From NCBI GenBank assembly GCA_018267585.1, contig JAFDYE010000285.1, positions 1 to 55,057 on the forward strand: DNA of 55,057 nt, given 5' to 3'. Numbering within the stretch: the first letter of the stretch is position 1; each line of letters starts with the position of its first letter. Under the pieces are notes generated by a model that was not told the origin of the DNA, ran no database searches, and was given only the letters and a program-made list of their open reading frames with translations. The position numbers and the translations under genes are program-made. Origin of the DNA: Bacteroidota bacterium (GTDB lineage: Bacteria; Bacteroidota; Bacteroidia; Chitinophagales; Chitinophagaceae). Below, one piece after another: positions 13,309-37,149 of the stretch.

Positions 13309-13415
13309 GACAAGCAAGTTTGAATATCTAAATTACAATATTCTACGACTATTAAAGTATTTTCTCCATTTGGAAGTGGTTGTGCCTATAAATGATTAAA
13401 AAAATTGTAATAGCT

Positions 13416-13557: not shown

Positions 13558-16500
13558 ATGAAAAGAGAATTCAGGTTCTTCCAACCTCTTATTAAAGCGT
13601 TCTGCTTTATTGGCATGCTGTTCATCACTATCCTGTCGGTATCCGGCCAGCAACCGGCGGGAAAGGTGAATGGTGTTATTACGGACAGTTCCGGAGTACC
13701 GATCCGGGGTGTGAGCGTTCAGGTGCTGGGCAGCCAGACCGGTGTTGTCAGTGACGAGCGCGGTGCATTTCAAATAAAGGCTTCTGACGGTGCGACCCTC
13801 GTTGTTTCCATTGCCGGTTACAGGACCGAGAAGGTCGAAGCGCGGGCCGGTGTCGAGATCCGGGTCACGCTGGTGCCACAGGCGGGCGTCCTCAACGATG
13901 TCGTTGTCATCGGCTACGGTACGCAGAAGAAGGCGGATGTGACGGGGGCGGTGGCTTCAGTGAAGGCTGCGGATATAGCCGACAGGATCACGTCAAATCC
14001 TTTAGAGGCGTTGTCGGGGAAGGTCCCGGGCCTGAGTGTATACAGCAATTCGGGCCGGCCGGGCGGGGGGGTGAGTGTCAATCTGCGGGGCTTCAATTCC
14101 ATCTCTGCCTCCAATTCGCCTTTGTTCGTCATTGACGGGATCGTTGGGGCGGACTTTCAGTCGATCAATCCCAGCGATATCGAGGCCGTGGATGTGCTCA
14201 AGGATGCGTCGTCCACAGCTATATACGGTTCGCGCGGCGCTAACGGAGTTATTATCGTGACCACCCGTAAGGCGAAGAGCGGGGATTTCGGCATTTCCTA
14301 CAATGGCAGCGTCAGTGTGAATCAGTTGGCAAGGCGCATGGATCTTTTGGATTCGAAGGGCTGGCTGACATGGTTCAAAAGGGCCTGGGCTTATGATCCT
14401 GCCCGGGGGGCCCTGCCTGACCTGCATGCGGATTACCCCGACCTATTCGACGGAAACGGCAATCCTATCTATAATACGGACTGGCAAAAGGAGGCGACGC
14501 GTACGGCGTTGTCGAACCGGCATTACATTTCCATGACGCAGGGGACTGCGAAGTCGAAGAACGGGCTATATGCGGGATACCAGGATGACGAAGGGATACT
14601 TCGTAATACGTATTACAAGAAATTTACTGCCCGATATAATACAGAGATGAATTTGCGATCCTGGTTGACTGTCGGTGGCGACATCGGATACAATCAGATC
14701 CGGACGAACAGAGTAGATGACTTTGCCGTTGGTGCGGAGAATGCGACGCGTATGATGGTTGAGTTCCTGCCTATTTTTCCTGTCAAATATCCCAACGGAG
14801 ACTGGAGCCGGCTGGACCAGTTCGGGTATAATTTCAATGGTTCGGGCGGGCACAGCAAGGCCGGTATTTACCCGGCGGAGAATCCTGTGCGGCAATTGGA
14901 TCAGATGGTCAATCTCTATCTTACGGACCAGGTACTGGCCAACTTTTATGGCAATGTCCGGCTTGCCAAAGGGCTTACCTTCAAAACCACGTATTCGACA
15001 CAGATACTTTCTCAGAAAAACAATATGTATATCGGAAAGGACCTGGAGGACATCGGGCTGCCGACGAGCGGGGCGGCAACGGTGGGCAATTCCCGGACGG
15101 TTTATTGGCAGGCGGAGAACTATCTCACTTATGACAGGAACATTGGATCGAATCATCACATAAACGCGGTCCTTGGTGCAAGCTGGATGGAGTCGACCCA
15201 GGAGACGTCTTCGGCCAGCGCTACAGGCTTTTCCACCGACTACTACCAGTATAACAATCTCAGTGCGGGCGCCGTACAGGGTACTCCCCAGTCAGGATAT
15301 AGCAATTATAAGCTGAATTCCTATTACGGGAGGGTCAATTATGCCTACCTGGACAAATACCTGCTGACTTTTACGGGCCGCTATGACGGTTCCTCGAAGT
15401 TCGGGGATGCGACGAAATTCGCCTTTTTCCCGTCCGGAGCTATCGGATGGATAGTCTCCAAGGAGAATTTTTTGGCCGACAATCATTTCATTTCCTTCCT
15501 GAAACTGCGCGGCAGCTATGGGATAACGGGGAACTCCGAGATACTTCCGTATTCGTCGCTCGGCAATGTAGGAGTATATACCATCGGGCTGGACGACCAG
15601 AGGGTAAAGGGAACCGGGCCCGTCAGCGTGCCGAATCCCAATCTGAAATGGGAGCAGACTGCCCAGACCGATATCGGCGTGGATCTGCGCGTACTGGATA
15701 ACCGGCTGAGCCTTACGGCGGACTATTATAAGAAGAAGACCACAAACCTGTTGTTGAACGTACCTATTTCTTCTGTCACCGGCTATACGACTGTGACGAC
15801 GAATATCGGCAGCCTGCAGAATACGGGCTTTGAACTGGCTGTGAACGGAGACGTCATTCGCGACCGGGACTTTAGCTGGAGCCTGGGTGCGCAGCTGTCC
15901 AGCAATACCAATAAGATCCTGGCGCTGGGGACTACCAATGCCGACATTTATCCAGGACCGAATTTTTTGGGACAGACGAATATCCTCCAGGTTGGCAAGC
16001 CGATCGGCAATTTCTGGGGTTTCAAGCGGATAGGCACGTGGGGGGATAAGGAGGCGGCGGAGGCTGCTCTTTACGGCAAGAAACCCGGTGATATCAAACG
16101 GCTGGATGTCAACAACGACCACGTATTTGACAACAGCGACGCCATGGTGCTGGGGAACATGTTTCCGAAGTACGAGCTGAATCTTACTACTACCGTACGA
16201 TATAAGAACTGGACGCTGAGCGCAGATGTGCAGGTAAGGCATGGCAATAAAGTGATGAACATTACTACGTTGACTATTGAAGACAGGCAATATTATGCCA
16301 ATAGCTATGGTACCATCCTCAATGACGCCTGGACGCCTGACCACCAGAATACTCTCGTGCCGTCCCTTCGATTTGCCAACATCGATCCATGGGGTACGGA
16401 TCTGCCATTCTTTATGGACAGCCGGTGGGTCGAGGATGGGTCGTTTGTGCGAGGGAAAAGCATCAACCTCGGATATGCTTTTCCTGGCAAAGAGGCGGTT

Positions 16501-16680
16501 CGCCTCGGACTTTCCGGCCTACGGCTGTATGCGAATGTCCAGAACTTCTTCCTCATCTCGAAGTACAGAGGCTTCGACCCCGAGGTCAGCACCTTCAACG
16601 GGTCGTTCGCACAGGGTATAGAATTCTATGGGTCACCCAGGCCACGTACGTATACGATAGGCCTTACTGCTAATTTCTAA
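13558..16680 (+). CDS. SusC-type TonB-dependent outer-membrane transporter
   Basis: A 1040-residue SusC/RagA protein. Signal peptide at residues 1-31 (cleavage near VSG-QQ). A carboxypeptidase-D-like beta-sandwich follows (KVNGVITDSSGVPIRGVSVQ), then the TonB box region VVVIGYGTQKKADVTGAV, the plug domain with PLFVIDGIVG and STAIYGSRGANGVIIVTTRK, and a C-terminal 22-strand barrel ending in an aromatic residue (TANF). No STN domain, unlike the second SusC in this window, so it is not coupled to an anti-sigma factor. It pairs with the SusD that starts 11 bp downstream and is the first gene of the operon. Confidence 0.96.
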   Translation: MKREFRFFQPLIKAFCFIGMLFITILSVSGQQPAGKVNGVITDSSGVPIRGVSVQVLGSQTGVVSDERGAFQIKASDGATLVVSIAGYRTEKVEARAGVEIRVTLVPQAGVLNDVVVIGYGTQKKADVTGAVASVKAADIADRITSNPLEALSGKVPGLSVYSNSGRPGGGVSVNLRGFNSISASNSPLFVIDGIVGADFQSINPSDIEAVDVLKDASSTAIYGSRGANGVIIVTTRKAKSGDFGISYNGSVSVNQLARRMDLLDSKGWLTWFKRAWAYDPARGALPDLHADYPDLFDGNGNPIYNTDWQKEATRTALSNRHYISMTQGTAKSKNGLYAGYQDDEGILRNTYYKKFTARYNTEMNLRSWLTVGGDIGYNQIRTNRVDDFAVGAENATRMMVEFLPIFPVKYPNGDWSRLDQFGYNFNGSGGHSKAGIYPAENPVRQLDQMVNLYLTDQVLANFYGNVRLAKGLTFKTTYSTQILSQKNNMYIGKDLEDIGLPTSGAATVGNSRTVYWQAENYLTYDRNIGSNHHINAVLGASWMESTQETSSASATGFSTDYYQYNNLSAGAVQGTPQSGYSNYKLNSYYGRVNYAYLDKYLLTFTGRYDGSSKFGDATKFAFFPSGAIGWIVSKENFLADNHFISFLKLRGSYGITGNSEILPYSSLGNVGVYTIGLDDQRVKGTGPVSVPNPNLKWEQTAQTDIGVDLRVLDNRLSLTADYYKKKTTNLLLNVPISSVTGYTTVTTNIGSLQNTGFELAVNGDVIRDRDFSWSLGAQLSSNTNKILALGTTNADIYPGPNFLGQTNILQVGKPIGNFWGFKRIGTWGDKEAAEAALYGKKPGDIKRLDVNNDHVFDNSDAMVLGNMFPKYELNLTTTVRYKNWTLSADVQVRHGNKVMNITTLTIEDRQYYANSYGTILNDAWTPDHQNTLVPSLRFANIDPWGTDLPFFMDSRWVEDGSFVRGKSINLGYAFPGKEAVRLGLSGLRLYANVQNFFLISKYRGFDPEVSTFNGSFAQGIEFYGSPRPRTYTIGLTANF

Positions 16681-16691
16681 ACACATTGAAT

Positions 16692-18176
16692 ATGAAAAAT
16701 ATTATTCCAATTATCTTGATCGCGCTCGGTCTTTCCGGATGTAAGAAGTGGCTGGAAGAGTCACCCAGGTCGGTCATTACAACGAACCTGTATTACAAGA
16801 CACAGCAGGATGCACAGTCGGCCGTTAATGGCATCTATTATTTTCTGTATCCGCCCTTTACCGGAGCCGGCAGAAACTATTCGTACGCAATGCTGGAGTT
16901 GGTGACCGGTGAATTCCGTACGGTGTCTGAGGGAAATGACCTTACGAATGTTTATAGTCTCCGGCAGAATTCGGCGAGTCCCCTTTTGCAGCAATGGTTC
17001 ACGGCAGGATATCAGGGCATCGAGGCGGCCAACCTCGTCATTGCCAATGTGCCGGCCATTCCGATGGATGATGCGGTAAAGAAATCGATGATCGGCGAGG
17101 CCAAATTTTTGCGGGCATATTATTACTATACCCTGGTGAATATATTTGGCGATGTTCCGTTAAAACTGAAGCCTACCGCTCAGGCATCGGACGGCCTGGT
17201 TGGCAGGTCACCAGTAAAAGCCATATATGAGCAGGCCATCGTGCCGGATCTGAAGGATGCAGAGGCGAGTGGACTTCCGGCCACGCCGGATGGCAGCGGG
17301 AGGGTATCGACCGGTGCGGCGAAGGCATTGCTGGCAAAGGTCTATCTCAGCATGGCGGGATATCCGGTCAGTGAGGCGGACAAGTTCGCGCTGGCGCGTG
17401 ACAAGGCGAAGGAAGTGATCGCCGGCGGCAATTTCCATCTTTTTCAATCCGACGCGTCGCTCACATGGTTCGACAAGCTGAACAATCCGGCATTCGATAA
17501 CAAGGAAGAAAACATCTTCAGCATCAATTTCGGGCTGGATGTAGTCAACAACATCCTGCCGATCGAACTTTATCCCAAAGGCGTGTCGTTCAACCGAAAT
17601 GGTTACGTCAACAATGATATGGGATTACTCTATCCGGAGACCAGCTTCCTCGCTTCCTATGACCCGGCCGATCTTCGCCGGAAAGAGAACGGCTTCTTCT
17701 ACGATACGATCAATGTAGACGGCGTAAAATACAGTTTCCCGTGGAGCATATACAAGTTCTTTGACAAAAGCCTGTTGAACAATGCGCCAAGGTCGGGAAA
17801 GGATTTTCCGCTAATACGTTTTGCGGATGTGCTTTTAACCTATGCAGAGGCGCAGAATGAAGCCGATGGCGGTCCCAATGCTGATGCCTATACTGCTGTG
17901 AATGGCCTCCGCAGCCGCGCCGGGTTATCGCCATTGTCCGGTCTCAATCAGTCCGACTTCCGGACGGCGGTATGGAAGGAGAGGGTATGGGAGCTATGTG
18001 CTGAGAACAAGGCGTGGTATGACATCGTGCGAACGCATAAGATATTCGACGCTGTACACGGCAGTTTTGTCGACGCGGTGGGTTACGTGCTGCCTTCCGG
18101 GGCAACGTTCCAGAGCTCCAACCTTCAATTCCCTATTCCTTTGGCTGAAGTACAGGTTAATCCCTTGTTGAAATGA
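16692..18176 (+). CDS. SusD/RagB family glycan-binding lipoprotein
   Basis: A 494-residue surface lipoprotein (MKNIIPIILIALGLSGC, lipobox LSGC). The helical SusD fold is evident from the N-terminal KWLEESPRS motif, the EAKFLRAYYYYTLVNIFGDVP segment (TPR part) and the C-terminal VLLTYAEAQNEA and RVWELCAENKAWYDIVR motifs. It caps the SusC barrel and binds the incoming glycan. A TTG at 16686 precedes the ATG at 16692. Its stop overlaps the start of the first GH38-like gene (ATGA at 18173-18176), implying translational coupling. Confidence 0.95.
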   Translation: MKNIIPIILIALGLSGCKKWLEESPRSVITTNLYYKTQQDAQSAVNGIYYFLYPPFTGAGRNYSYAMLELVTGEFRTVSEGNDLTNVYSLRQNSASPLLQQWFTAGYQGIEAANLVIANVPAIPMDDAVKKSMIGEAKFLRAYYYYTLVNIFGDVPLKLKPTAQASDGLVGRSPVKAIYEQAIVPDLKDAEASGLPATPDGSGRVSTGAAKALLAKVYLSMAGYPVSEADKFALARDKAKEVIAGGNFHLFQSDASLTWFDKLNNPAFDNKEENIFSINFGLDVVNNILPIELYPKGVSFNRNGYVNNDMGLLYPETSFLASYDPADLRRKENGFFYDTINVDGVKYSFPWSIYKFFDKSLLNNAPRSGKDFPLIRFADVLLTYAEAQNEADGGPNADAYTAVNGLRSRAGLSPLSGLNQSDFRTAVWKERVWELCAENKAWYDIVRTHKIFDAVHGSFVDAVGYVLPSGATFQSSNLQFPIPLAEVQVNPLLK

Positions 18177-20836
18177 GAAGTCTCGTAAAGATACTGGTTT
18201 ATTTGACCATTGTACTGGCGCCAGCGGCCGGCCGCGGGCAGAATTCTTCCTACGATTATTTTACCGGCGGCAGAATACATGTGGTGCCGTCCTCTCACCA
18301 GGACATAGCGTGGATGGATACGCCCGACAGCTGCCGGCGGTTTCGTGACCTGCATGTGATCACACCTGCACTGAGGCGGCTAAAGGAAAGCAAGGATTTC
18401 CGGTTTTCCGTGGAGAATGCGTTGAACCTTTATGAATACCTGGACAGGCATCCTGAGAGGCTGGCCGAGATAGCCAAATACACAAGGGAGGGGAGACTGG
18501 AGTGGGGTGCGACGTATAACCAGCCTTATGAAGGCCTGTACGACGGAGAAGCGTTGATCCGCGAAGTCTATTATGGCAAGAAGAAATTACAGAAGCTGAT
18601 ACCGGGAGGCAGTTTTAGTTGTGCGTGGTCGGAGGACGTGCCGGGCAGGTCGATGCAGACTGCGCAGATATTTTCGAAGGCCGGAATACAGTATCTGCAG
18701 TTCAGCAGGTTCCAACCCGGAGTATACAAATGGTTCAGCCCGGACGGCAGCCATATCATTTGCTGGACACCCGGTCAGTATGAGGAATCGGGGCGTGTAA
18801 TAAGGCATGCTGCCGATGAGGTACACAGAACGGCGGAATTTGCAGGCAAGCTGGCTTCCCTAAATAATTATTACAAATCCAGGTCGCTTGCGCCGGAATT
18901 TATATACATCAGTTCGGAGGATTTTTCCGAGCCGCTGGACTACGATGCGTATTTCCGGAAGTGGAATAAAGACGTCGCCGAGGGGAAAAGCGACCTGCCC
19001 CGGATAAATTATGCCACCGGAGGGGAAGCGCTGGCGGCAGTCAGTGGCGGCCGTGGAAAGATCGATAGTGTCAGTGGCGAATATCCGAATCTCTGGTTGT
19101 ATATCCATGGCCCGACCCATGAGAAGGCAGTAAGGGAGGGACGTCTGGCGTCCAGGTTGCTGACGGCTGCGGAGAAGTTCGCGACGGTTTCGGCGACATT
19201 AACAGGGAGTTTTTCGGATTACCCGCAGCGGGCATTCGATGAAGCCTGGCAGTGTGCGATCTACCCTGATCATGGCTGGGGCGGCGTGCATGGCGACAGC
19301 ACGGATCAGGTCTTTGCGAACAGCTATGTAAAGGCGGCTCGTGCAGGGGATTCCATTCTGCGGGGCAGGCTGGACCGAATTTGCCATTCCATTAAGTATG
19401 CAGGCGAGGGGAAGCCTATTGTCGTCTTCAATCCATTGTCCTGGACCCGCAGCGACCCGGTAGAGGTTACCACAAATACGGAAGGTATTTATGACAATGC
19501 GTTCCGGCTGGTGGATGACCGCGGCCAGGCGGTGGAGTACCAGGTTGTATCCTCGCCGGTGGAAGGGACGAATGCGATGCTGACGATCAGCTTTATTGCC
19601 CGTGATATACCTTCCATCGGATATGCTACGTATTACCTGGTGCCGGGGAGATCGGGCGATGCTGAAAAGCTGCGCATTACTATAACTGGTAATGTGGTGG
19701 ATACGAGATTCTACAAGGTAGAGCTTGGAAGCGGCGGTATTAAGTCTATATTTGACAAAGAGGAGCAGCGGGAGCTCATTGCGCCCGGCAGGCTGCTTGC
19801 CGGAGAAGTTTTTTCTCTACAGTCTGTCGGCAATGGGGCTGGGGAGTTCACCAGTGTGCAGCAGCCGACAATGGAGGGTTTCGAGAAGATGGGCCAGTAC
19901 AATGCCAGCTGGTCGCTGGTGGAAAATGGTCCTGTGCGTACGGTTATAGAGACCGTGCATCCCTGGAGAAATTGTACAGTCCGGCAGCGGGTGATCTTCT
20001 ATACGATGGCCAGGCGGATAGATTTTCAGGCGGACATCATTGGGTTCAACGGTGAGCGCAGCAGGGAATTCCGGATGGCCTTTCCGTTGGGGATGGACAG
20101 TGCACGGGTGTCTTATGAGGCGCCGATGGGCATTGTCGAGGTTGGGAGGTCTGAGCTGCCGTTTGCGCCGGGATTTTCAAAGCCGGAACAGGTCTATAAT
20201 ACGCCGTGCAAGGATATTCATCCAAGGGAGGTCCAGGATTGGTTCGCAGCGGCGGATGGGAGGGGATCGGTCACCATCAGCAGCGATGTTGCCGTCTTCG
20301 ACTGGATAGATCCGACGGGCGTCAACGCCAGGCCTGTCCTGCAGCCAGTGCTGCTCGCCAGCCGGAGGAGCTGTAATGAAAGCCCATTGGCCAACTGGTA
20401 CCTGCAACGCGGCGATCACCATTTCACCTTTTCCTTTTTTTCGAATGACAGCAAGGGATATCCCGGCTGGAAAAACGGCAAGCAGGCGGCCGAGCCCCTG
20501 CTGGTGGTGGACAATGTCCCCGATAGCCGTAGCCGAAAGAAAGATGCGGGTGCCGTGTTACCGGAGCGGTATTCGTTTGCCAGCGTAGACAAGGACAACA
20601 TCGTCATTTCCGCTATCAAGAAAAATGACGACGAGAACAAGGTCATTTTGAGATGTTATGATATGGAGGGGAAGGATACGGACGCAACGCTAAGCTGGTT
20701 TAAAGGCATCCGTAACCTGGAGAAGACCAATATTATTGAACAGAACCCGGAAAGAACCGGAAAAGATGGGAAAGTATCCGTAAAGAAATTCAGCATCGAG
20801 ACCTTTCAGTTCGACGCTGTGCCGGGAATAAAATAA
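18173..20836 (+). CDS. Exported GH38-like glycosidase, paralogue 1
   Basis: An 887-residue protein with a signal peptide (residues 1-22, cleavage near GRG-QN). The GH38 catalytic core is recognisable: HQDIAW (His42, Asp44, zinc ligands), SEDVPGRS (Asp155, candidate nucleophile, spaced from Asp44 as in alpha-mannosidase II), the IHGPTHEKAVREGR to TAAEKF segment matching the GH38 TYTS/AE helix, and YPDHGWGG (His367, candidate last zinc ligand). The C-terminal half is beta-rich with FTSVQQPTMEGF and NARPVLQPVLLASRRSC. GH38 enzymes cleave alpha-mannosides with retention; divergence here means another alpha-glycoside is possible. First of three tandem paralogues; starts on the SusD stop. Confidence 0.8.
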   Translation: MRSLVKILVYLTIVLAPAAGRGQNSSYDYFTGGRIHVVPSSHQDIAWMDTPDSCRRFRDLHVITPALRRLKESKDFRFSVENALNLYEYLDRHPERLAEIAKYTREGRLEWGATYNQPYEGLYDGEALIREVYYGKKKLQKLIPGGSFSCAWSEDVPGRSMQTAQIFSKAGIQYLQFSRFQPGVYKWFSPDGSHIICWTPGQYEESGRVIRHAADEVHRTAEFAGKLASLNNYYKSRSLAPEFIYISSEDFSEPLDYDAYFRKWNKDVAEGKSDLPRINYATGGEALAAVSGGRGKIDSVSGEYPNLWLYIHGPTHEKAVREGRLASRLLTAAEKFATVSATLTGSFSDYPQRAFDEAWQCAIYPDHGWGGVHGDSTDQVFANSYVKAARAGDSILRGRLDRICHSIKYAGEGKPIVVFNPLSWTRSDPVEVTTNTEGIYDNAFRLVDDRGQAVEYQVVSSPVEGTNAMLTISFIARDIPSIGYATYYLVPGRSGDAEKLRITITGNVVDTRFYKVELGSGGIKSIFDKEEQRELIAPGRLLAGEVFSLQSVGNGAGEFTSVQQPTMEGFEKMGQYNASWSLVENGPVRTVIETVHPWRNCTVRQRVIFYTMARRIDFQADIIGFNGERSREFRMAFPLGMDSARVSYEAPMGIVEVGRSELPFAPGFSKPEQVYNTPCKDIHPREVQDWFAAADGRGSVTISSDVAVFDWIDPTGVNARPVLQPVLLASRRSCNESPLANWYLQRGDHHFTFSFFSNDSKGYPGWKNGKQAAEPLLVVDNVPDSRSRKKDAGAVLPERYSFASVDKDNIVISAIKKNDDENKVILRCYDMEGKDTDATLSWFKGIRNLEKTNIIEQNPERTGKDGKVSVKKFSIETFQFDAVPGIK

Positions 20837-20842
20837 CCATAT

Positions 20843-23542: not shown

Positions 23543-23556
23543 AGAGTTGCATACAT

Positions 23557-26409: not shown

Positions 26410-27818
26410 CCATGATCAAGGGTAAAACATATTTGACGGTTATCTGTGCCACGGCCGGGATGGGAGGTTTTCTATTTGGATTCGACACGGCCGTCATATC
26501 GGGCGCTGTGAATTTCCTGCGGGCGCAGTTCGGGCTCAGTCCCGTGATGGAAGGTTGGATCATGAGTTCAGCCCTGCTTGGTTGTGTGGCGGGAGCGGCT
26601 GTTGCCGGTTATCTTTCGGACAGATACGGGCGAAAGAAGATACTGCTGGCGTCGGCGCTGCTGTTCATCGTATCCGCACTGGGATGCATGGTGGCCGGTA
26701 CGCCGTCCGTGCTGGTGGTATTCCGAATCGTGGGAGGCATAGGGGTGGGCTTTGCCGCCATGGTGGCACCTATGTTCATTGCCGAGCTGGCGCCGGCGCA
26801 TCTACGGGGCAGGCTGGTTTCTATCTATCAACTGGCGATCACGCTGGGCATTCTCACTTCATACCTGTCGAATGCGATGCTGCTGGAATATGCATCGGCT
26901 CATGGCGGGCAACGGGGCGGGTTACTGCATTTTTATCTGGTGGAAGAAGTGTGGCGGGGTATGCTCGGATCAAATATGATCCCTGCGGCGCTATTGTTGC
27001 TGCTTCTGTTCTTTGTCCCGGAGAGCCCGAGGTGGCTGGTGAAGGAAGGACAATATGAGCGGGCCTGTGAGATATTGAGCCGTATCAGCGGGCGTCAAAA
27101 GGCCACCGCGGAGATCGGCGAGATATCGATAGCGCTTTCCGAGGAAGGGAAGGGCAGTTTTGGTCAGCTGTTTGCGCCCGGGATCCGTGCGGCACTCGTC
27201 ATCGGTCTCGCGCTGCCTTTCCTCAGCCAGCTGACGGGTATAACTACCGTCATGTACTATGCGCCGGCCATTTTCGAGCATGCCGGTTTTCGGTCGGGAT
27301 CGGCTATGGGAAGTGCCTCGATCATCGGGTTTTTTAATATGATCTTTACTTTCGTCGCGATCTGGAAGATCGATCATTGGGGGAGGAAGCCGTTGCTCAT
27401 CTGGGGATTTACGGGGTTGAGCGTTGCCCTCCTGTCGATCGGTCTGCTTTTTTACAGCGGGGGCGTGCAGCAGGTGCTGCTTTGGTCATTTGTATTTTAT
27501 ATCGTCGTATTTGCGGCGACCATCGGACCTGGTGTATGGGTGGTCATAGCGGAGATCTACCCGACAAAGGTCAGGGGAAGGGCGATGTCTATCGCGACCT
27601 TGTCACTTTTTCTGGGTTCGACTTTTGTAACGCAGACATATCCGTTGCTTCGCGAGGGTGTCGGCATCGGCATCACTTTCGTGTTGTATGGTCTGGCGAT
27701 GGTGCCTGCAATATTCTTTGTTCGAAATGTTGTTCCGGAGACGAAGGGGCGGACGCTGGAAGACATCGAACGTCAGTGGACGGTAAAAAAGAGCAAAACG
27801 GAAAATGAATGGCAATGA
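26406..27818 (+). CDS. MFS sugar porter (XylE/GalP-like, sugar:H+ symporter)
   Basis: A 470-residue, 12-helix transporter of the sugar porter family. Signatures: GFLFGFDTAVISGAV in helix 1, DRYGRKK after helix 2, PESPRWL before the central loop, and PETKGRTLEDIER after helix 12. It would bring the monosaccharide or small product released by the exported hydrolases into the cytoplasm. The ATG at 26406 overlaps the preceding stop; another ATG at 26412 is possible. The end overlaps the next gene by 10 bp. Confidence 0.93.
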   Translation: MTMIKGKTYLTVICATAGMGGFLFGFDTAVISGAVNFLRAQFGLSPVMEGWIMSSALLGCVAGAAVAGYLSDRYGRKKILLASALLFIVSALGCMVAGTPSVLVVFRIVGGIGVGFAAMVAPMFIAELAPAHLRGRLVSIYQLAITLGILTSYLSNAMLLEYASAHGGQRGGLLHFYLVEEVWRGMLGSNMIPAALLLLLLFFVPESPRWLVKEGQYERACEILSRISGRQKATAEIGEISIALSEEGKGSFGQLFAPGIRAALVIGLALPFLSQLTGITTVMYYAPAIFEHAGFRSGSAMGSASIIGFFNMIFTFVAIWKIDHWGRKPLLIWGFTGLSVALLSIGLLFYSGGVQQVLLWSFVFYIVVFAATIGPGVWVVIAEIYPTKVRGRAMSIATLSLFLGSTFVTQTYPLLREGVGIGITFVLYGLAMVPAIFFVRNVVPETKGRTLEDIERQWTVKKSKTENEWQ

Positions 27819-28963
27819 AAATAAAAGGGATCACCTGGGATCATCCAAGGGGTTATCAGCCTTTGAGGGCGGTGGCGGCTGAATGGGGTCGTAGAACGGG
27901 AATCCAACTGCAATGGGATGTGAGGACCCTCAAAGAATTCGGCGACATGCCGGTGGAAAAGCTTGTGGGTCTGTATGACCTGATCATCATCGACCATCCA
28001 TATATGGGTGAGGCGGCTTCGAAGGCGTTGTTGCTGCCCCTTGAAGACTATTTACCGGAACGCTTTTTCCAGGTCCAGGCGGCTCAGAGCGTGGGACCGT
28101 CCTATGACAGCTATGGGTGGGAGGGGCGACATTATGCGCTGCCGGTGGATGCGGCGGCACAGGTGGCGGTGATGCGAAAGGATCTGGCGGATGCGATCGG
28201 ATGGCGTCCTCCGGCATATACGGAGGCATTGCGGGCTGCTGCGGAAGAGCTCCCGAGCGGGAAGTTTGTTGCCGTCCCGTTGTGTCCTACGGACATCTGG
28301 TGCGTCTTTCTTACGCTCTGCGCGCAGTATACGGGGGGAGAATTCTTTACGGCGGCGGGTGTCGATGAAGCGGCGGGCAGGCATGCGCTGGCCATGTTGC
28401 AGGAATGGGCTGATTTTTTGCACCCGAATTCTTTCCGGATGAATCCCATTCAAATGCTGGATAGGATGGCTGCGGAAGATGAGATCATCTATTGCCCGTT
28501 CAGCTTTGGGTATACGAACTATGCGAGGAGGGATGCTGCCGGCACGAGGCTGACTTTTATAGACGCGCCGCGTCGCAGCGGGCATGGGATATCGACCCTG
28601 CTTGGCGGAGCGGGGATTGCGGTCTCGCGGAACAGCGTCAACCGGGATGCCTGCCTGGATTTTATCCGGTATGTGCTCGACGCCGAGGTACAGCAGACCA
28701 CATATTATCGTAATGGCGGGCAGCCTGCGCATCTATCTGCATGGGAGGATGATGCCTGTAATGCGGACAGCGGAGATTTTTTCAGGCAAACTTTGTATAC
28801 GTTGCAGCATGCTTACCGGCGAAAGGGTGCGCCGGGGTTCAACAGGTTCCAGGAGGAGGCGGCGGATATTGTGCATGTGAGTGCAATGGAAGGGTTAGAA
28901 GGGGCGTCGATTATGCGGCAATTGAATAAACTTTATCAATCGACATGTCATGACCAGGTATGA
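27809..28963 (+). CDS. Solute-binding-protein-like protein without a signal peptide
   Basis: A 384-residue protein that resembles family 1 extracellular solute-binding proteins. Seen: a first beta strand KGITWDHPRGYQPL, YDLIIIDHPYMGEAA, YALPVDAAAQVAVMRKDLAD, PPAYTEALRAAAEEL, GGAGIAVSRNSVN and a helical C-terminus. The N-terminus is MAMKIKGITWDH, with no signal peptide, lipobox or TAT motif, so it should be cytoplasmic. No ABC permease or ATPase gene is in the window. It overlaps the MFS gene (10 bp) and the enoyl-CoA hydratase gene (14 bp), so it is firmly part of the operon. Possible roles are a cytoplasmic ligand sensor, a carrier, or a fold reused as an enzyme. Confidence 0.75.
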   Translation: MAMKIKGITWDHPRGYQPLRAVAAEWGRRTGIQLQWDVRTLKEFGDMPVEKLVGLYDLIIIDHPYMGEAASKALLLPLEDYLPERFFQVQAAQSVGPSYDSYGWEGRHYALPVDAAAQVAVMRKDLADAIGWRPPAYTEALRAAAEELPSGKFVAVPLCPTDIWCVFLTLCAQYTGGEFFTAAGVDEAAGRHALAMLQEWADFLHPNSFRMNPIQMLDRMAAEDEIIYCPFSFGYTNYARRDAAGTRLTFIDAPRRSGHGISTLLGGAGIAVSRNSVNRDACLDFIRYVLDAEVQQTTYYRNGGQPAHLSAWEDDACNADSGDFFRQTLYTLQHAYRRKGAPGFNRFQEEAADIVHVSAMEGLEGASIMRQLNKLYQSTCHDQV

Positions 28964-29717
28964 TACCATTACCTGCACCATCGAAGACGGTGTAGGCAGG
29001 CTGCAATTCAACAGACCCGGTTTGTTGAATGCGATGAACAGGCAAATGATGGATGAGATCATCCATGCGTTGGAGACTATTGCCAGAGCGGAGGGGGTAT
29101 CGGTGGGGATAATCACCGGGAGTGGGCGGGCGTTCATGGCGGGTGCCGATATAAAGGAATACAGCCGGCAGACGGCCGGGGAGTTCAAAAGCTTCCAGGA
29201 GAAGGGCAGGCGATTGTACGCGTTGATCGAGCAGGCAGAAATCCCCTTTATAGCGGCTGTAAATGGATTTGCGCTGGGAGGTGGATTCGAGATCGCACTG
29301 GCCTGCGACTTTATCGTTGCGGCCGCATCTGCAAAGATGGGTCTTCCGGAAGTTCATTTGGGGCTGATACCCGGAGGCGGCGGTGCGCAGCGGCTGCTGC
29401 TGAAGGTTGGACTTGGAAGGGTGAAGGAGATGTTGTTGCTGGGGCAGTCCTATACGGCGGCCCGGATGGAGGAATGGGGCGTAGTGCATGAGGTGGCCGA
29501 GGACGGGGCGCTGGAGGATGTAGTCACGGGGCTGGCGGAGAAGCTAAAGCGACGGCCGAGGCAGGCGGTGAAGGCGATCAAGGCCATGTTGGAGCCGTCA
29601 GCGGTCGAGGCCGTCTTTGAGACGAGGCTGGACAGAGAGGGGGCGGCTGTGGCGGCCTTGTACCATACGCCGGAGGCCATGCAGCTGATAGAAAAATTTA
29701 CGACGAAAAATAAATGA
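28950..29717 (+). CDS. Enoyl-CoA hydratase/isomerase family protein
   Basis: A 255-residue crotonase-fold enzyme, normal length. Both catalytic glutamates of true hydratases are kept: GGGFEIALACDF (equivalent to rat Glu144) and LPEVHLGLIPGGGG (equivalent to Glu164). The oxyanion-hole segment GSGRAFMAGADIKEY is present. It should hydrate an enoyl-CoA, or act in the reverse dehydration. The acyl group is unknown; the CaiB-type CoA-transferase two genes downstream could supply the thioester. It overlaps the preceding gene and is 3 bp from the next. Confidence 0.92.
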   Translation: MTRYDTITCTIEDGVGRLQFNRPGLLNAMNRQMMDEIIHALETIARAEGVSVGIITGSGRAFMAGADIKEYSRQTAGEFKSFQEKGRRLYALIEQAEIPFIAAVNGFALGGGFEIALACDFIVAAASAKMGLPEVHLGLIPGGGGAQRLLLKVGLGRVKEMLLLGQSYTAARMEEWGVVHEVAEDGALEDVVTGLAEKLKRRPRQAVKAIKAMLEPSAVEAVFETRLDREGAAVAALYHTPEAMQLIEKFTTKNK

Positions 29718-29720
29718 CGG

Positions 29721-30905
29721 ATGGATACAAAACGAAAGGAGTTGGTGGAGGAGCTGATGCAGCGGCAGCGGCTGGCAGCGCTGTTATTCTGGCGGCCGGA
29801 CGAGCTGGTGATGATGCTGGGCTATATGCCGTTGTGGGGCGTTTCGGTACTTTTTTATCCGGCGGAAGGTCAGGCGGTGCTGTTTGTGCCCGAACTGGAA
29901 CCGGAAGATATTCTTCCTGCCGGCATTGAAGTGAGGAAATATCCCTGGGGGGTGCTTGATGGCAGGGACCCTTGGGTGGTTTTATACAAGGCGATCAGGG
30001 ATGAATTGGCGAAAAGAAGTCCTGGCGGCGGCCGGGTATCCTTTATCAGGAATATTGGCGGCAGTGCGCCATGCCGGATGTCGGGGGAGCAACCGCCATT
30101 GCCGCCGGACCTGGCGGAGCAGTTGGAAAGGGTCAGTGATGCGGGGTGGAGTGATGCCGGAGGCGAATTGGCGGGGCTTTATGAGCAAAAAACGGCGACG
30201 GATGTTGCCGGTTTGGAGAAGACGCATCGAATAGCCGCCCATGCCGTGGAGGTATTCTATCGCGAAGTGGAGAAAGGGCATACGGAGGCTTTGCTTGCGG
30301 CGCAGGTAGAAAGTGCGGTACAGGAGGCCAGCGGAGGGCCCGGTATCAGCTTTGCAAAGGCGTGGCCGATGGTGCAGTCCGGGAGGAACTCGGCGGATGC
30401 CGGAAAGTTCAACAGGAGCACCAATAAAGTCATACAGAGCGGTGAGCTGGTGGTGCTCGAGATGGGGCTTTGCGTGGAGGGTTATTGGGCCGATATAACC
30501 CGTACTGCCGTGGCCGGAGAAGCTACGGATCTGCACCGGCGGATGTACGATGCAGTTATAGGTGCACAGCGGGCCGCATACGGGCTGCTTCGGCCGGGGG
30601 TGGCCATGCGGGAGGTGGATAAGGCCGCGCGGGATTATATCCGGGATGCGGGGTTTGGCGGGTACTTTCCGCATGGGCTGGGGCATCAGACGGGTTTTCG
30701 ATACCACGATCCCGGAGACACTCTGTCGCCCTTTAGTACGGGCGTGCTCCGGGAGGGCATGGTGGTCACGGTGGAGCCGGGCATTTATGGCGAAGCGTTA
30801 GGCGGAGGGCTGCGGATAGAGGATAACGTATTGATCACTGCGGAGGGCTACCGGATATTGTCTGAAAGCCACCGAGAATTAAAAGGAAAAAATCATGGTA
30901 ACTGA
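29721..30905 (+). CDS. M24 family (creatinase/Xaa-Pro aminopeptidase-like) hydrolase
   Basis: A 394-residue protein: creatinase-type N-terminal domain (about 1-150), then the pita-bread fold. Metal-site alignment: VLEMG replaces the usual first Asp with Glu, ADITRT keeps the second Asp, the GLGHQTGF His is present, VEPGIY supplies a Glu and GGLRIEDNV the last Glu. So a binuclear site is probable but non-standard. Family members include proline peptidases, creatinase and the DMSP lyase DddP. A peptidase role makes little sense beside CoA enzymes, so another C-N or C-S bond hydrolysis should be considered. It overlaps the next gene by 11 bp. Confidence 0.85.
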   Translation: MDTKRKELVEELMQRQRLAALLFWRPDELVMMLGYMPLWGVSVLFYPAEGQAVLFVPELEPEDILPAGIEVRKYPWGVLDGRDPWVVLYKAIRDELAKRSPGGGRVSFIRNIGGSAPCRMSGEQPPLPPDLAEQLERVSDAGWSDAGGELAGLYEQKTATDVAGLEKTHRIAAHAVEVFYREVEKGHTEALLAAQVESAVQEASGGPGISFAKAWPMVQSGRNSADAGKFNRSTNKVIQSGELVVLEMGLCVEGYWADITRTAVAGEATDLHRRMYDAVIGAQRAAYGLLRPGVAMREVDKAARDYIRDAGFGGYFPHGLGHQTGFRYHDPGDTLSPFSTGVLREGMVVTVEPGIYGEALGGGLRIEDNVLITAEGYRILSESHRELKGKNHGN

Positions 30906-32106
30906 AAATAGTAACGAAGGAGCTTTAAGCGGAGTTCGGGTCGCCGACCTCACGCAGCTGGTGCAAGGGCCATGGGCTACGCAGATGCTTGGGGACATGG
31001 GAGCCGACATTATCAAGATCGAGCCGCCTGGCGGAGATTGGATGCGGCATTATGCCTATGGTAATCTTTATCCTGGCGGGGAGAGCATTTCGTTTTTGGG
31101 ATTCAACAGGAACAAGCGGAGTATTGCCCTGGATCTGAAGAGCGCGGAGGGGTTGCAGGCGGCAAGGGACATCATATCGAAATGTGACATTGTTATTGAA
31201 AATTTCCGGCCGGGCGTCATGGACAGGCTCGGCATCGGGTATGAAGCATTGCGGGAGGGCCAGCCGGGTCTCATTTATTGTGCGAGCTCGGGTTATGGCA
31301 AGGACGGACCCTACAGGACGCGGCCGGGGCAGGATCTGCTGGCGCAGTCGCTTGCGGGTGGCGCATGGCTGAATGGCCGGCGTGGGGACATGCCTGTCGT
31401 GACGGCGGTAGGTCAGGCAGACCTGCTTACCAGTCTATTTATTGTGCAGTCCGTGCTGGCGGCATTGTATCATCGTCAGCAGACTGGCAGCGGCCAGCGG
31501 ATCGACGCCAGCCTGTTCAATTCTATCATCGCCTTCCATACGCAGGAGATCACCGCCTACCTGCATAAAGGGGCAAATCCCGAGCGGAGCGCTGCAGGTA
31601 TTCCCAATCCCTGGCTGGGCGCCCCATACGGTCTGTATCCCACGCAGGACAGCTACATCGCGATCGGCATGAATTCCGTCCGAAGGCTTGCATCCATCAT
31701 GGGGGTGGATGGATATGACCAGGAGGTTTTCGACAGCAATAATGTCATCGAGGGCAGGGATAGCGTATATGAAAGCTTCGCCGCCGTCTTCAGGACAAAG
31801 ACAACAGATGAATGGCTGAGTCTGTTGCTGCCGCATGATATCTGGTGCTCACAGGTCAACACTTTCAGGGAAATGGCCGTAGACCCACAGGTGCAGCACA
31901 ACGAAATGATCATTGAATATGATCATCCTGCGGCGGGCAAGGTGGCAACGACGGGGATTCCCGTGCAGTTCAGCGGCACTCCGGCGGGTGTGCGGCGTCC
32001 GCCTCCCCTGCTCGGCGAACATACGAAAGAGATACTTACAGAAATTTGCGGATACACGCAGGAGCAGGTGCAGGCCGTAGCGCGTTCTTGCGGGGCTTCT
32101 TCATAA
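30895..32106 (+). CDS. CaiB/BaiF family (class III) CoA-transferase
   Basis: A 403-residue class III CoA-transferase of normal length. Seen: the N-terminal GVRVADLTQLVQGPWATQML and MGADIIKIEPPGGDWMR motifs, the NRNKRSIALDLK segment, VIENFRPGVMDRLG, and the catalytic Asp in RPGQDLLAQSLAG (equivalent to the formyl-CoA transferase nucleophile). It would move CoA between carboxylic acids, without ATP. Together with the enoyl-CoA hydratase it forms a minimal CaiB/CaiD-like module. No CoA ligase, acyl-CoA dehydrogenase or thiolase is nearby. Confidence 0.93.
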   Translation: MVTENSNEGALSGVRVADLTQLVQGPWATQMLGDMGADIIKIEPPGGDWMRHYAYGNLYPGGESISFLGFNRNKRSIALDLKSAEGLQAARDIISKCDIVIENFRPGVMDRLGIGYEALREGQPGLIYCASSGYGKDGPYRTRPGQDLLAQSLAGGAWLNGRRGDMPVVTAVGQADLLTSLFIVQSVLAALYHRQQTGSGQRIDASLFNSIIAFHTQEITAYLHKGANPERSAAGIPNPWLGAPYGLYPTQDSYIAIGMNSVRRLASIMGVDGYDQEVFDSNNVIEGRDSVYESFAAVFRTKTTDEWLSLLLPHDIWCSQVNTFREMAVDPQVQHNEMIIEYDHPAAGKVATTGIPVQFSGTPAGVRRPPPLLGEHTKEILTEICGYTQEQVQAVARSCGASS

Positions 32107-32119
32107 AAAAAGCAGAGTC

Positions 32120-32914
32120 ATGGAAAACAGTATCGATCTTAAAGAGCGTCGGGTATTGATCACGGGTGCTAGCCGTGGGATCGGCGCGGGAATTGCCCGG
32201 GTGATGGCGGCCTGCGGAGCACATTTAGTGATAAATCATCTGCGGGATGGTAACCGGGCGCAAGAGCTTGCTGATGAGCTGCGGAGGATTTACGAAGTGA
32301 AGGTATTGGTGTGTGAGGCGGATATTTCTATCCCGCAGGACGTTTCCGGCCTTTTCCGAAGGGCCGATGAGCAGTTGGGCGGCATTGACGTATTGGTGAA
32401 CAATGCTGGCTGCGAGACCATCGACCATGCCGTCGACCTTGATCTGAACGACTGGGACCGAATATTCAATGTGAATCTTCGGGGCGCCTTCATCTGTGCA
32501 CAGGAGGCGGGGAGGAGAATGGCAGCCCAGAACAGCGGCGTCATCATAAATATTTCCTCGATCCATGACAAAGTGCCCAGGAAGGGGCTGATACATTATT
32601 GTTCGGCCAAGGCAGGGCTGAACATGATGAGCAAGTGTCTGGCGCTGGAACTGGCGCCTTATAGGGTTCGTGTCGTTGCTGTATCTCCCGGCGCGATCGA
32701 GACGGAAATGAACAGGGAGGAAATAGAGAAGTTCGGGCGGGAGAAGTTCAATGGATGGATACCGGGCGGTCGTGTCGGGGGAGTGGAGGATGTAGCATGG
32801 ATCTGCGCCTTTCTTGCCAGCGACAAAGCGGCGTATGTCACGGCTACGGAAATTTATATCGATGGGGGGTACAAGGAAAGCACAATTCCTTATGATCCCC
32901 GGCCAAAAAAATAA
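32120..32914 (+). CDS. SDR family NAD(P)-dependent dehydrogenase
   Basis: A 264-residue classical short-chain dehydrogenase. Cofactor motif TGASRGIG (about residue 15-22), NNAG (about 94), catalytic Ser in NISSIHD, and YCSAK (the Tyr-Lys pair). The glucose 1-dehydrogenase-like C-terminus (VTATEIYIDGGY) suggests a sugar or hydroxy-acid substrate. In this operon it could oxidise the imported sugar to a lactone, or act on a 3-hydroxy or keto intermediate. 13 bp after the CoA-transferase gene. Confidence 0.93.
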   Translation: MENSIDLKERRVLITGASRGIGAGIARVMAACGAHLVINHLRDGNRAQELADELRRIYEVKVLVCEADISIPQDVSGLFRRADEQLGGIDVLVNNAGCETIDHAVDLDLNDWDRIFNVNLRGAFICAQEAGRRMAAQNSGVIINISSIHDKVPRKGLIHYCSAKAGLNMMSKCLALELAPYRVRVVAVSPGAIETEMNREEIEKFGREKFNGWIPGGRVGGVEDVAWICAFLASDKAAYVTATEIYIDGGYKESTIPYDPRPKK

Positions 32915-32924
32915 TAAAAAGCGC

Positions 32925-33338
32925 ATGATCGAAGTATACGAACATACTGACAAGGGATATAATCCTTTTATCATCCGGGAGGGATGGCAGGTAGCGCAGC
33001 TCAATCATATGGAGGCGCAGGACCTCGAGGGGATCCTGAAGATGGATATGCACCTGCAGACCGACGAAGTATTCATTCTGCTGAGAGGAGTGGCGGTGCT
33101 TATCGCTGCGGCGGTCAATGGGCCGGAGGACCTTCACTTCACGTGTGTAAGAATGCGGCCGGGCATTACCTATAATATTCCTGTCAATACCTGGCACAAT
33201 ATCGCCATGGATAAGACGGCGTCCGTGGTCATCGTAGAGAGAAGCGATACGCATCTGGGAGATTTTGTCTATATGCAGCTGACCGATAGTCAGCGGCATC
33301 AGTTGAAGGCGGCAATAAGGACAGCCATGGAAGTGTAG
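32925..33338 (+). CDS. Small cupin-domain protein
   Basis: A 137-residue protein from the ATG at 32925; the open frame reaches back to 32814 inside the SDR gene, but that part is an overlap shadow. One cupin barrel is visible: MHLQTDEVFILLRGVAVLI (motif 1) and PGITYNIPVNTWHNIAMD (motif 2). His is present in HLQTDE and in TWHNI, but the first HxH pair is incomplete, so metal binding is uncertain. It may be a sugar isomerase/lyase or a binding protein; no specific function can be assigned. Confidence 0.78.
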   Translation: MIEVYEHTDKGYNPFIIREGWQVAQLNHMEAQDLEGILKMDMHLQTDEVFILLRGVAVLIAAAVNGPEDLHFTCVRMRPGITYNIPVNTWHNIAMDKTASVVIVERSDTHLGDFVYMQLTDSQRHQLKAAIRTAMEV

Positions 33339-33384
33339 GGCGGGAGCCACACAATGATTACACAATTTTAAAATAGTAAGACTA

Positions 33385-34077
33385 ATGTCAAGAGAACTAC
33401 AACCGCAGCGTTTGCCGGCATGGAATAATGATGAAACACTGTTCGAATTGTACCGAAACGAGCTTTATACGCCTGTTGTGGGTGACATACTGGATGAACT
33501 CGGTTGTTATCACCAGTTCTTGCCTCAGCCTATACAACCCGCGCAAATGCATTTCAAAGTAGCCGGAAGGGCGATGCCTGTGTTGATGATCGACGTGTAT
33601 GGTCCGCAGGAGCGGCCGTTCGGGAAACTGACCGAGGCGCTCGACCAATTGGAAAAGGATGAGGTATATATAGCCAGCGGCGGGGACATGCGTTGTGCGT
33701 ATTGGGGGGAGATACTGACCGCGACGGCGAAGACCCGGGGGGCCTGCGGTGCCGTGATCAACGGATATTACAGGGATACGGCCCGCGTCCTGGAGCAGAA
33801 CTGGCCGGTATTTAGCCGTGGACGTTATGCGCAGGACTCCTGCGTCCGGACGCAGGTGGCGGACTACCGTTGCAGGATCGAGGTAGGCGGCGTGACAGTC
33901 ATGCCAGGCGACCTCGTTTTCGGCGATATCGATGGCGTTGTGGTCATTCCAAGGAAGCATGAAAAGGAAGTTACCATCAGGGCCCTGGAAAAGGCGAGGG
34001 GAGAAAAGATGGTGCGTAAGGAGATCGAGGCGGGGATGTCGAGCACGACGGCTTTCAGGAAATACGGCATTTTATAA
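33385..34077 (+). CDS. RraA/HMG-aldolase family protein (candidate pyruvate aldolase)
   Basis: A 230-residue protein of the RraA-like family, which includes 4-hydroxy-4-methyl-2-oxoglutarate aldolase/oxaloacetate decarboxylase. Family motifs: [39 protein letters not shown] (the substrate Arg and metal-coordinating Asp) and [17 protein letters not shown]. These residues fit a metal-dependent class II pyruvate aldolase rather than the RNase-E regulator RraA. Next to a mannonate-dehydratase-like gene 17 bp downstream, cleavage of a 2-keto-3-deoxy acid is a plausible role. Confidence 0.85.
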
Positions 34078-34094
34078 TTGAAAACAAAGAGGAA

Positions 34095-35153
34095 ATGAAA
34101 CTTGGAATGGGTCTTTACAGACATATGCTCGACCGGCAACATTTCGATTTTGCAAGGCAGTGCGGCTGTACGCATATCGTCGTGCATCTGGTAGATTATT
34201 TCAACAAGGGCAATCAAAGCAATAAGGATAATCAGCCCATCGGGGATGACAGTGGTTGGGGGTACGCCGGCGATCCCGGAAAGTTGTGGACGACCGATGA
34301 GCTTAGGGCGTTGAAACGTGCGATCAATGAAGCAGGCCTGGAACTGGAAGCCATCGAAAATTTCGATCCTGCCCATTGGCACGATATCCTGCTGGACGGG
34401 CCACAAAAGGCGCGGCAGATGGAAGGGCTGAAACAGTTGATCCGCAATGTCGGCGCCGCAGGTATCCCGGTAATGGGCTATAATTTCAGCCTGGCCGGAG
34501 TCAGCAGCAGGATGGTTGGAAATTTTGCCCGCGGTAATGCCCAGTCTGTAGGCATGAATGCTGTCGACGATCGCCCTATTCCCAACGGGATGGTCTGGAA
34601 TATGGTCTATGATACCCACGCTCCGGCGGGATATCTGCCCGAGATCAGCCACGGGGAATTGTGGAGCAGGCTCGAATATTTTCTGCATGAGTTGGTGCCT
34701 GTTGCCGAAGAGGCGGGTGTAAGGCTGGCGGCGCATCCCGATGATCCGCCCATGCCAATGATACGACGTACTCCGAGGCTTGTATACCAGCCGCAGCTCT
34801 ATCGAAAGCTGCTGGATATTTACCCCAGCAGGAACAATGCCCTCGAGTTCTGTCTCGGGTCGATAGCCGAGATGACCGAAGGCGATGTATATGAGGCTAC
34901 GCGCGACTATGCCCGGGATATTGCCTATGTCCACTTCCGGAATGTGAAGGGAAAGGTGCCGCACTACAAAGAGGTGTTCGTCGACGAAGGAGACATCGAT
35001 ATGATACGGATCCTGGGAATACTGAAGAATTCGGGATTCGAGGGCGTTCTTATCCCGGATCATACTCCACAGATGAGTTGCGGGCAACCATGGTATGCCG
35101 GGATGGCATATGCGCTGGGATATATGAATGCGTGCATTAAGATGCTGCGCTGA
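34095..35153 (+). CDS. Mannonate dehydratase-like (UxuA family) TIM-barrel protein
   Basis: A 352-residue protein, shorter than E. coli UxuA (about 394) but similar to compact UxuA homologues. Key motifs: LAAHPDDPPMP (metal-binding His), LEFCLGSIAEM (Cys ligand region), VHFRNVKGKVPHYKEVFVDE (second His) and VLIPDHTPQ. UxuA converts D-mannonate to 2-keto-3-deoxygluconate, needing a divalent metal. With the SDR and RraA-like aldolase it could complete a route from mannose to pyruvate. Last gene of the operon; it ends 10 bp before the convergent GMC gene. Confidence 0.87.
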   Translation: MKLGMGLYRHMLDRQHFDFARQCGCTHIVVHLVDYFNKGNQSNKDNQPIGDDSGWGYAGDPGKLWTTDELRALKRAINEAGLELEAIENFDPAHWHDILLDGPQKARQMEGLKQLIRNVGAAGIPVMGYNFSLAGVSSRMVGNFARGNAQSVGMNAVDDRPIPNGMVWNMVYDTHAPAGYLPEISHGELWSRLEYFLHELVPVAEEAGVRLAAHPDDPPMPMIRRTPRLVYQPQLYRKLLDIYPSRNNALEFCLGSIAEMTEGDVYEATRDYARDIAYVHFRNVKGKVPHYKEVFVDEGDIDMIRILGILKNSGFEGVLIPDHTPQMSCGQPWYAGMAYALGYMNACIKMLR

Positions 35154-37123: not shown

Positions 37124-37149
37124 CCGATTTGCCTTTAATCAATCAAAAC

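Follow-up and report, generated by a model that had tools for sequence, protein, structure and literature searches.

A conserved SusCD operon of a Bacteroidota bacterium joins GH38-like hydrolases and a putative oxidative mannose core to an optional CoA gene trio

Positions 13558-35153 of contig JAFDYE010000285.1 (assembly GCA_018267585.1; Bacteroidota bacterium, family Chitinophagaceae), which was analysed over its full length of 55,057 nucleotides (the window), carry a densely packed operon that begins with a SusC/SusD pair and ends with a gene for a UxuA-like protein. We propose, with about even confidence, that this is an alpha-mannoside utilisation locus which has an oxidative mannose core and an optional gene trio related to coenzyme A (CoA), with a solute-binding-fold protein as cytoplasmic partner within the trio. 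The block is composite. The genes for a sugar transporter, a short-chain dehydrogenase (SDR), a cupin, an aldolase of the RraA type and a UxuA-like protein represent a common core, those for the solute-binding-fold protein, an enoyl-CoA hydratase (ECH) and a CaiB/BaiF CoA-transferase represent the optional trio, and an M24 hydrolase goes with the GH38-like hydrolases within the genus. The trio, above all its sugar-binding-fold protein devoid of an export signal, is the part that is surprising to a specialist. If the proposal is correct, a bacterial SusCD locus has its own oxidative mannose route.

The operon consists of 14 complete open reading frames (ORFs), all on the plus strand. Their order is SusC, SusD, three GH38-like hydrolases, a major facilitator superfamily (MFS) transporter, the solute-binding-fold protein, ECH, M24, CaiB, SDR, cupin, RraA and UxuA, and the intergenic gaps are, in this order, 11, -4, 6, 14, -4, -10, -14, 3, -11, 13, 10, 46 and 17 bp. 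An earlier note on this DNA had described 14 plus-strand genes with gaps from negative to about 46 bp and had listed these families from SusC to UxuA; the measured gaps (-14 to +46 bp) and the profile matches bear this out, the cupin being assigned by a profile match to PDB entry 3d0j and by its predicted fold. A divergently transcribed gene for an AraC-family regulator (12421-13317, minus strand; HTH_18 1.2e-21) belongs to the operon unit. An Rfam search of the region gave no match, and a scan for promoters and terminators returned nothing usable.

Conservation was analysed in 98 genomes, including the window's own (G000), with UxuA, RraA, GH38 and M24 as queries, and ten loci were read. The block from AraC to UxuA is present in the same order in two other genomes of the genus, which we read as Flavitalea (G014 and G002), with 65-91% protein identity per gene. 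The AraC regulator is 90% (G014) and 85% (G002) identical where it lies next to the full operon, and 52% (G007) and 51% (G041) identical where it lies next to a core without CoA genes. In the stretch read from G002, homology to window genes spans AraC to UxuA only; extra matches to SusC, SusD, FecR and sigma factor are paralogues with 22-30% identity. In the G014 stretch, homology extends past UxuA solely through a pair of GMC oxidoreductase and DUF1080 genes. This is good evidence, within one genus, that the block is a selected unit. The earlier note's view of one fused unit thus stands in so far as genes for capture, cleavage, import and breakdown are conserved together in G014 and G002. It does not stand as a fusion of two halves, since the core recurs without the CoA genes in G007, G485 and G041; for the same reason, we consider the aldolase/UxuA half the common core and the CoA trio an add-on.

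The variants are instructive. G007 has AraC, SusC, SusD, MFS, GH38, M24, SDR, cupin, RraA and UxuA and lacks the solute-binding gene, ECH and CaiB. Relative to this arrangement, the solute-binding and ECH genes precede M24 and CaiB follows it, so that the trio is interleaved rather than appended. G041 has only AraC, a GH76-domain protein, MFS, SDR, cupin, RraA and UxuA, and no GH38. In G485, which belongs to another family, GH38, RraA, MFS, cupin, SDR, a seven-bladed lactonase, UxuA, a GH76-domain protein and GH92 are found without CoA genes, and G647, from outside the class, has SusCD, GH38, UxuA, a lactonase and SDR. Homologues of MFS, SDR, cupin, RraA and UxuA occur together in six of the 11 tabulated UxuA-clade loci (G000, G014, G002, G007, G041 and G485). 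Alpha-mannan-type families are present in seven of the 11: GH38 by Pfam in G000, G007, G485 and G647 and by 72-83% identity to the window copies in G014 and G002, GH76 weakly but above the cut-off of 25.9 bits in G041 (32.7 bits) and G485 (30.0 bits), and GH92 by Pfam in G485. Weak GH92-query matches in G647 (30%) and G408 (27%), which were not checked by Pfam, were left out of this count. The GH38 subfamily is restricted to four of the 98 genomes, and the CoA genes are in the same operon in three of these (not in G007). Related genomes in which the two halves never occur together, which the earlier note had named as refuting its idea, are therefore not what is observed. In a 335-genome sample of the phylum, the UxuA clade is present in five genomes and the GH38 subfamily in three, and both are present in G000 and in G485; in the latter genome, about 4.6 kb separate the UxuA and GH38 genes.

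At the outer membrane, the operon codes for a SusC/RagA TonB-dependent receptor (13558-16680; NCBIfam TIGR04056, 839 bits, cut-off 368) and a SusD-type lipoprotein (16692-18176; SusD_RagB 6.4e-27, SusD-like_3 6.9e-25). The latter probably starts at the ATG at 16692; a TTG at 16686 is also possible. Three GH38-like hydrolases follow: a (18173-20836; Glyco_hydro_38N 7.4e-22), b (20843-23542; 8.1e-22) and c (23557-26409; 1.4e-25). A crude hydropathy check indicated export-type N-termini for SusC, SusD and the three GH38-like products, and none for the solute-binding-fold protein, ECH, M24 and CaiB. Adjacent SusC and SusD genes and co-localised exported glycan-active enzymes (the three GH38-domain proteins with their hydrophobic N-termini) mark this as a putative SusCD polysaccharide utilisation locus. 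The GH38 N, C and C2 domains are above the Pfam cut-offs in all three hydrolases, and the middle domain is not reported in any of them (Pfam, E 0.001). The H-x-D and DVP motifs, which we take to contain the zinc-binding H and D and the nucleophile D of GH38, are kept in eight of eight aligned copies and align with Ams1, and the PDB sequences matched by hydrolase c are alpha-mannosidases. By domains and motifs, the three proteins are candidate alpha-mannosidases. Alpha-mannan and N-glycan utilisation loci of Bacteroidota carry GH38, GH76 and GH92, families that act on alpha-mannosides. The focal operon shares with the alpha-mannan loci the SusCD pair and the hydrolase type, but adds cytoplasmic oxidative sugar-acid enzymes.

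The M24 ("pita-bread") hydrolase (29721-30905; Peptidase_M24 6.2e-52) has homologues with at least 55% identity in the same four of 98 genomes as the GH38 subfamily, all of them Flavitalea; there is no M24 homologue beside GH38 in the G485 locus. Two Flavitalea genomes have further M24 genes in clusters with genes for RraA, SDR, a transporter and an enolase-superfamily protein (L125, about 11.8-16.7 kb; L133, about 5.7-10.6 kb), the last two labels being assigned by reading.

The cytoplasmic side begins with the MFS sugar porter (26406-27818; Pfam Sugar_tr; TIGR00879, 373.6 bits, cut-off 237.8), which is XylE-like, its best PDB match being the D-xylose-proton symporter 4gby (6.2e-91). The SDR (32120-32914), our proposed mannose 1-dehydrogenase, passes the cut-off of the "glucose 1-dehydrogenase" subfamily NF005559 (224.4 bits, cut-off 215). 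The proposed 2-keto-3-deoxygluconate (KDG) aldolase (33385-34077; RraA-like 7e-33) has the RD pair, which is found in seven of seven aligned sequences. The proposed mannonate dehydratase (34095-35153; UxuA PF03786 1.3e-52) has mannonate dehydratases as its nearest solved structures. In an alignment to 3ban (E 5.6e-37), it keeps the HPDDPP, C-x-GS, H-x-RNV and PDH stretches, which presumably form the UxuA metal site. The cupin-fold protein (32925-33338; 137 aa) matches 3d0j by profile (E 5e-24), has no Pfam match at E 0.001 and is weakly similar to WbuC cupins, below the model cut-off. It is predicted to be a beta-barrel, with 3d0j again the best PDB fold match (of five models, the best has a pLDDT of 87.2 and the worst one of 53.6). 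Its possible role as a lactonase replacement was rejected, as cupin and lactonase are both present in G485 and L045.

From these assignments, we propose the following route. SusCD would capture the glycan at the outer membrane, the three exported GH38-like enzymes would release mannose, and the XylE-like transporter would import it. The SDR would oxidise mannose to mannonolactone, which would hydrolyse to mannonate; UxuA would dehydrate mannonate to KDG, and the RraA-like aldolase would split KDG into pyruvate and glyceraldehyde. Mannose is proposed as substrate because GH38, GH76 and GH92 adjoin the same cytoplasmic core. For the trio, CaiB may move CoA onto a sugar-derived acid and the hydratase may add or remove water on the resulting thioester. 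The export-less sugar-binding-fold protein would then be a cytoplasmic substrate-binding partner of the CoA enzymes and not part of a transporter. What is observed directly is the content and order of the genes, their conservation and modularity, the predicted folds and the missing export signal; substrates, reactions and the partner role are in each case proposed from sequence.

The earlier note knew of no described pathway with this gene set. For the SDR-UxuA-aldolase part, this does not hold, because the oxidative mannose route is a relative of it (PMC6901390, PMC10963439). According to the accessible part of the study on Thermoplasma acidophilum, the aldohexose dehydrogenase AldT, ManD and KDG aldolase convert mannose via mannonate and KDG to pyruvate and glyceraldehyde in vitro, and the authors leave open whether this oxidative non-phosphorylative pathway runs in the cell (PMC6901390). 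The focal operon has genes for a dehydrogenase, a ManD-type protein and an aldolase together. By the functions proposed here, the two systems would have in common an NAD-dependent sugar dehydrogenase, a mannonate dehydratase and an aldolase giving pyruvate and glyceraldehyde, and in Thermoplasma, the dehydrogenase and dehydratase genes are adjacent (PMC6901390). In contrast, the system described here is a bacterial SusCD locus with GH38-like enzymes, a cupin, M24 and CoA genes. Its aldolase is of the RraA type. In haloarchaeal beta-mannan clusters (Natronoglomus), mannan hydrolases are likewise clustered with manD and an RraA-family gene (according to a figure legend), and oxidation of mannose to KDG is proposed (PMC10963439). 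As far as the accessible text of that source goes, these clusters differ in having beta-mannanases, oligomer uptake and a proposed kinase (semi-phosphorylative) route, and in lacking the CoA trio (PMC10963439).

The solute-binding-fold protein (27809-28963; SBP_bac_8/SBP_bac_1) is predicted to be cytoplasmic: neither an export signal nor a lipobox was found in a check for a hydrophobic N-terminus. This absence extends to its relatives. Among 91 ORFs examined (two copied loci were dropped), 87 carry the first conserved motif (GITW-x-H-x-RG type). Counted back from this motif, the most distant start codon that could be used is at a median of 8 codons, and at no more than 20 in 79 of the 87 relatives; the open frame extends upstream of the motif by 30 codons at most in 76 of them. 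A model predicted from a 60-sequence alignment (pLDDT 96.6) matches sugar-binding proteins across nearly the whole chain (trehalose/maltose-binding protein 1eu8, SmoF 7ofy). While the fold is shared with these ABC-transporter proteins, the focal protein differs in lacking an export signal and in being encoded beside CoA enzymes. Cognate permease genes are absent from the focal operon, a point not systematically checked elsewhere. In Nitratireductor, a solute-binding/CoA-transferase pair is found near ABC sugar permeases that have their own binding protein, and some other loci seem to carry ABC permeases, too (read from gene clusters without a Pfam check). The annotated plasmid records that were seen name the protein an extracellular or an ABC-transporter substrate- or solute-binding protein, and such an annotation invites misreading as transport. 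In an early count of 73 loci, 28 had a second solute-binding-fold gene (cluster N4; L106:13437-14672 and relatives) within 5 kb and in the same orientation; the example that was read shows no obvious export signal.

The ECH (28950-29717; ECH_1 1.5e-53) has the crotonase fold and both glutamates that we take to be its motif residues. The family III CoA-transferase of the CaiB/BaiF type (30895-32106; CoA_transf_3 6.4e-113) has the aspartate which is presumably the CaiB motif residue. Its nearest PDB sequence is succinate-hydroxymethylglutarate CoA-transferase (9br7, 9e-71), and it passes no curated CaiB activity model. Family and motif aspartate are shared with known CaiB/BaiF enzymes (9br7, formyl-CoA transferase); the focal protein differs in being encoded in a sugar locus, beside the gene for an export-less solute-binding-fold protein.

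This pairing recurs in several phyla. At least 557 relatives of the solute-binding gene were found in a contig scan, of which the best 80 were taken as loci. With 18 further loci around relatives in the searched genomes, this gave 98 loci, 96 of them non-redundant (two copies of counted contigs were dropped). Neighbours were counted by tblastn; relatives of high similarity are over-represented in this sample, and a neighbourhood is no proof of a complex. Of the 96 loci, 83 have a CaiB gene on the same strand no more than 5 kb away, and in 64 the distance is at most 150 bp. As to hydratases within 10 kb, 22 loci have only an ECH, 55 only a MaoC-type enzyme, one has both and 18 have neither. By contrast, no CaiB, ECH or MaoC was found in 20 control loci (GH47 neighbourhoods), for which a match at any place in the locus and on either strand was counted. 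For the 80 contig-scan loci, with phyla assigned from record titles, CaiB is found within 10 kb in 41 of 44 from Bacteroidota, 14 of 14 from Bacillota, 6 of 6 from Pseudomonadota, 3 of 5 from Chloroflexota, 3 of 5 from Acidobacteriota, 1 of 3 from Verrucomicrobiota, the single one from Deinococcota, not in the single one from Balneolota, and in the one unassigned locus. On pSymB of Sinorhizobium meliloti, the CoA-transferase gene overlaps the solute-binding gene (the gene table is incomplete). In the open-licence literature, no publication on a pairing of CaiB or another CoA-transferase with a sugar solute-binding protein was found. If the proposal is correct, the pairing is widespread, and a function assigned to it would extend to hundreds of genes.

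The trio occurs with unrelated kinds of alpha-mannosidases, namely with GH38 in the focal loci and with GH47 in L055 and L063. The latter two have the order GH47, MFS, SDR, CaiB, ECH and solute-binding gene, with GH92 further upstream in L055, and may share one origin. In the locus count, GH38 is scored as 0 of 96, as L025 and L027 are the downstream halves of loci that have their GH38 genes in L024 and L026. Two apparent associations were discarded. A 758-aa ORF labelled CaiB in L116 is not a fusion, the solute-binding and CaiB matches being in different frames. GH2 "mannosidase" matches (11 of 96 loci, eight of them MaoC-type) were not used, as the query matches GH2 broadly; a GH2 protein with a Mannosidase_ig domain is present in L057, L100 and L122. 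In seven loci (L071, L072, L081, L098, L102, L118 and L119), RuBisCO-like, SBD_N/NBD_C kinase and Asp/Glu-racemase-like genes lie in a row downstream of the CaiB pair (one example of each was scanned), a set that we take to be apionate-type.

Several observations weigh against the function proposed for the locus. On the substrate side, the GH38-like proteins are above the cut-off of no curated activity model. In M24 and its three closest relatives, a Glu takes the place of the Asp that we assume to be the canonical first metal ligand, which hints at an altered activity. The UxuA scores do not reach the cut-offs of the curated mannonate-dehydratase models (151.9 versus 191; 117.2 versus 199.6), which is why the name is restricted to "UxuA-like". 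The focal operon has no lactonase; spontaneous lactone hydrolysis, as given for the Thermoplasma in vitro route in the accessible part of that study (PMC6901390), would explain this. In four of the 11 UxuA-clade loci, no alpha-mannan family is found in the stretch read (G022, which ends at the contig end, G034, G414 and G408; in the last three, ten genes chosen by eye were scanned, the remainder only by the query set). The uxuA gene of Paenibacillus sp. B2, which has a gene for an RraA-type aldolase as its neighbour, responds to a lignin dimer with strong up-regulation and is given a role in aromatic breakdown in the accessible text (PMC12673573). This report counts in favour of uxuA-RraA adjacency and speaks against mannose as substrate. 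Taken with the UxuA scores and with three of the UxuA-clade loci devoid of alpha-mannan families, it favours the alternative that the substrate of the core is a different sugar or acid (e.g., lignin-derived compounds or uronic acids) and that the names UxuA and RraA mislead. We consider this unlikely, given the recurrence of alpha-mannan-type hydrolase families beside the core.

As to the trio, no same-strand CaiB lies within 10 kb in 13 of the 96 solute-binding loci, some of which are on short contigs. Of 31 full-length GH47 places listed, 20 loci were read, and none has CaiB, ECH or a solute-binding gene. The notion that the CoA trio is a general feature of alpha-mannosidase loci was rejected on this basis. 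Among 395 genomes searched from the class, a close homologue of CaiB (E 1e-85 or better) was found in the window's own alone, so that the focal version of the trio is rare. Finally, the presence of UxuA and of CaiB with ECH side by side leaves the job of the trio unexplained.

In one alternative, the operon would serve two substrates, the core handling the sugar while CaiB and ECH, with M24, handle an acyl, amide or acid group on the mannoside (e.g., of mannosylglycerate or acylated glycolipids) and feed beta-oxidation elsewhere. Such a division of labour is compatible with the mannose core, and it fits the existence of cores without CoA genes, the similarity of the focal CaiB to carboxylate CoA-transferases and the co-occurrence of M24 with GH38 in the four Flavitalea genomes having GH38, though not in G485. 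The GH38 copies are weakly similar to mannosylglycerate hydrolase, far below its cut-off. It is, however, rather improbable: the operon has no thiolase or acyl-CoA dehydrogenase, and in other loci, the trio has sugar dehydrogenases, lactonases or sugar transporters as neighbours, pointing to a substrate derived from a sugar.

In a further alternative, the aldonate itself is processed with CoA: CaiB would make an aldonyl-CoA, and ECH or MaoC would dehydrate or isomerise this thioester in place of UxuA; in a variant, a racemase-type step of CaiB would epimerise C2. A set of dehydrogenase, CoA-transferase and enoyl-CoA hydratase does recur, and both the dehydrogenase and the hydratase are swapped for non-homologous types: 10 of 22 ECH-type loci have an SDR, and 47 of 55 MaoC-type loci have a Gfo/Idh enzyme. 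Homologues of the rhamnosidase families GH78 and GH106 are each present in 11 of the 55 MaoC-type loci. The focal operon has, however, a UxuA-type dehydratase already, and we know of no aldonyl-CoA enzyme of this kind, so that this alternative has a low probability.

It is tempting to speculate on a CoA-dependent branch of sugar catabolism in several phyla, a possible but doubtful generalisation. An SDR or Gfo/Idh enzyme would oxidise the sugar, CaiB and its export-less partner would form the thioester, and ECH or MaoC would process it. The focal operon would then be wired to alpha-mannosides, and the MaoC-type loci with GH78 and GH106 to L-rhamnose (6-deoxy-L-mannose).

Outside the operon, a convergent GMC oxidoreductase gene (minus strand) lies 10 bp past UxuA and is followed by a plus-strand gene with a 3-keto-disaccharide-hydrolase domain (DUF1080) (together 35164-38079). 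This pair adjoins UxuA in G014 (L025) and G022 (L129) and does not do so in G002 (L027). Beyond it (38150-47517), genes for an ECF-type sigma factor, FecR, a second SusC with an STN domain, a second SusD and a protein with two DUF4369/thioredoxin halves form a separate sigma-regulated SusCD set. Upstream of the operon (1433-5111, plus strand), genes for a GH43 protein, a Gfo/Idh oxidoreductase and a xylose-isomerase-like TIM barrel lie in a row.

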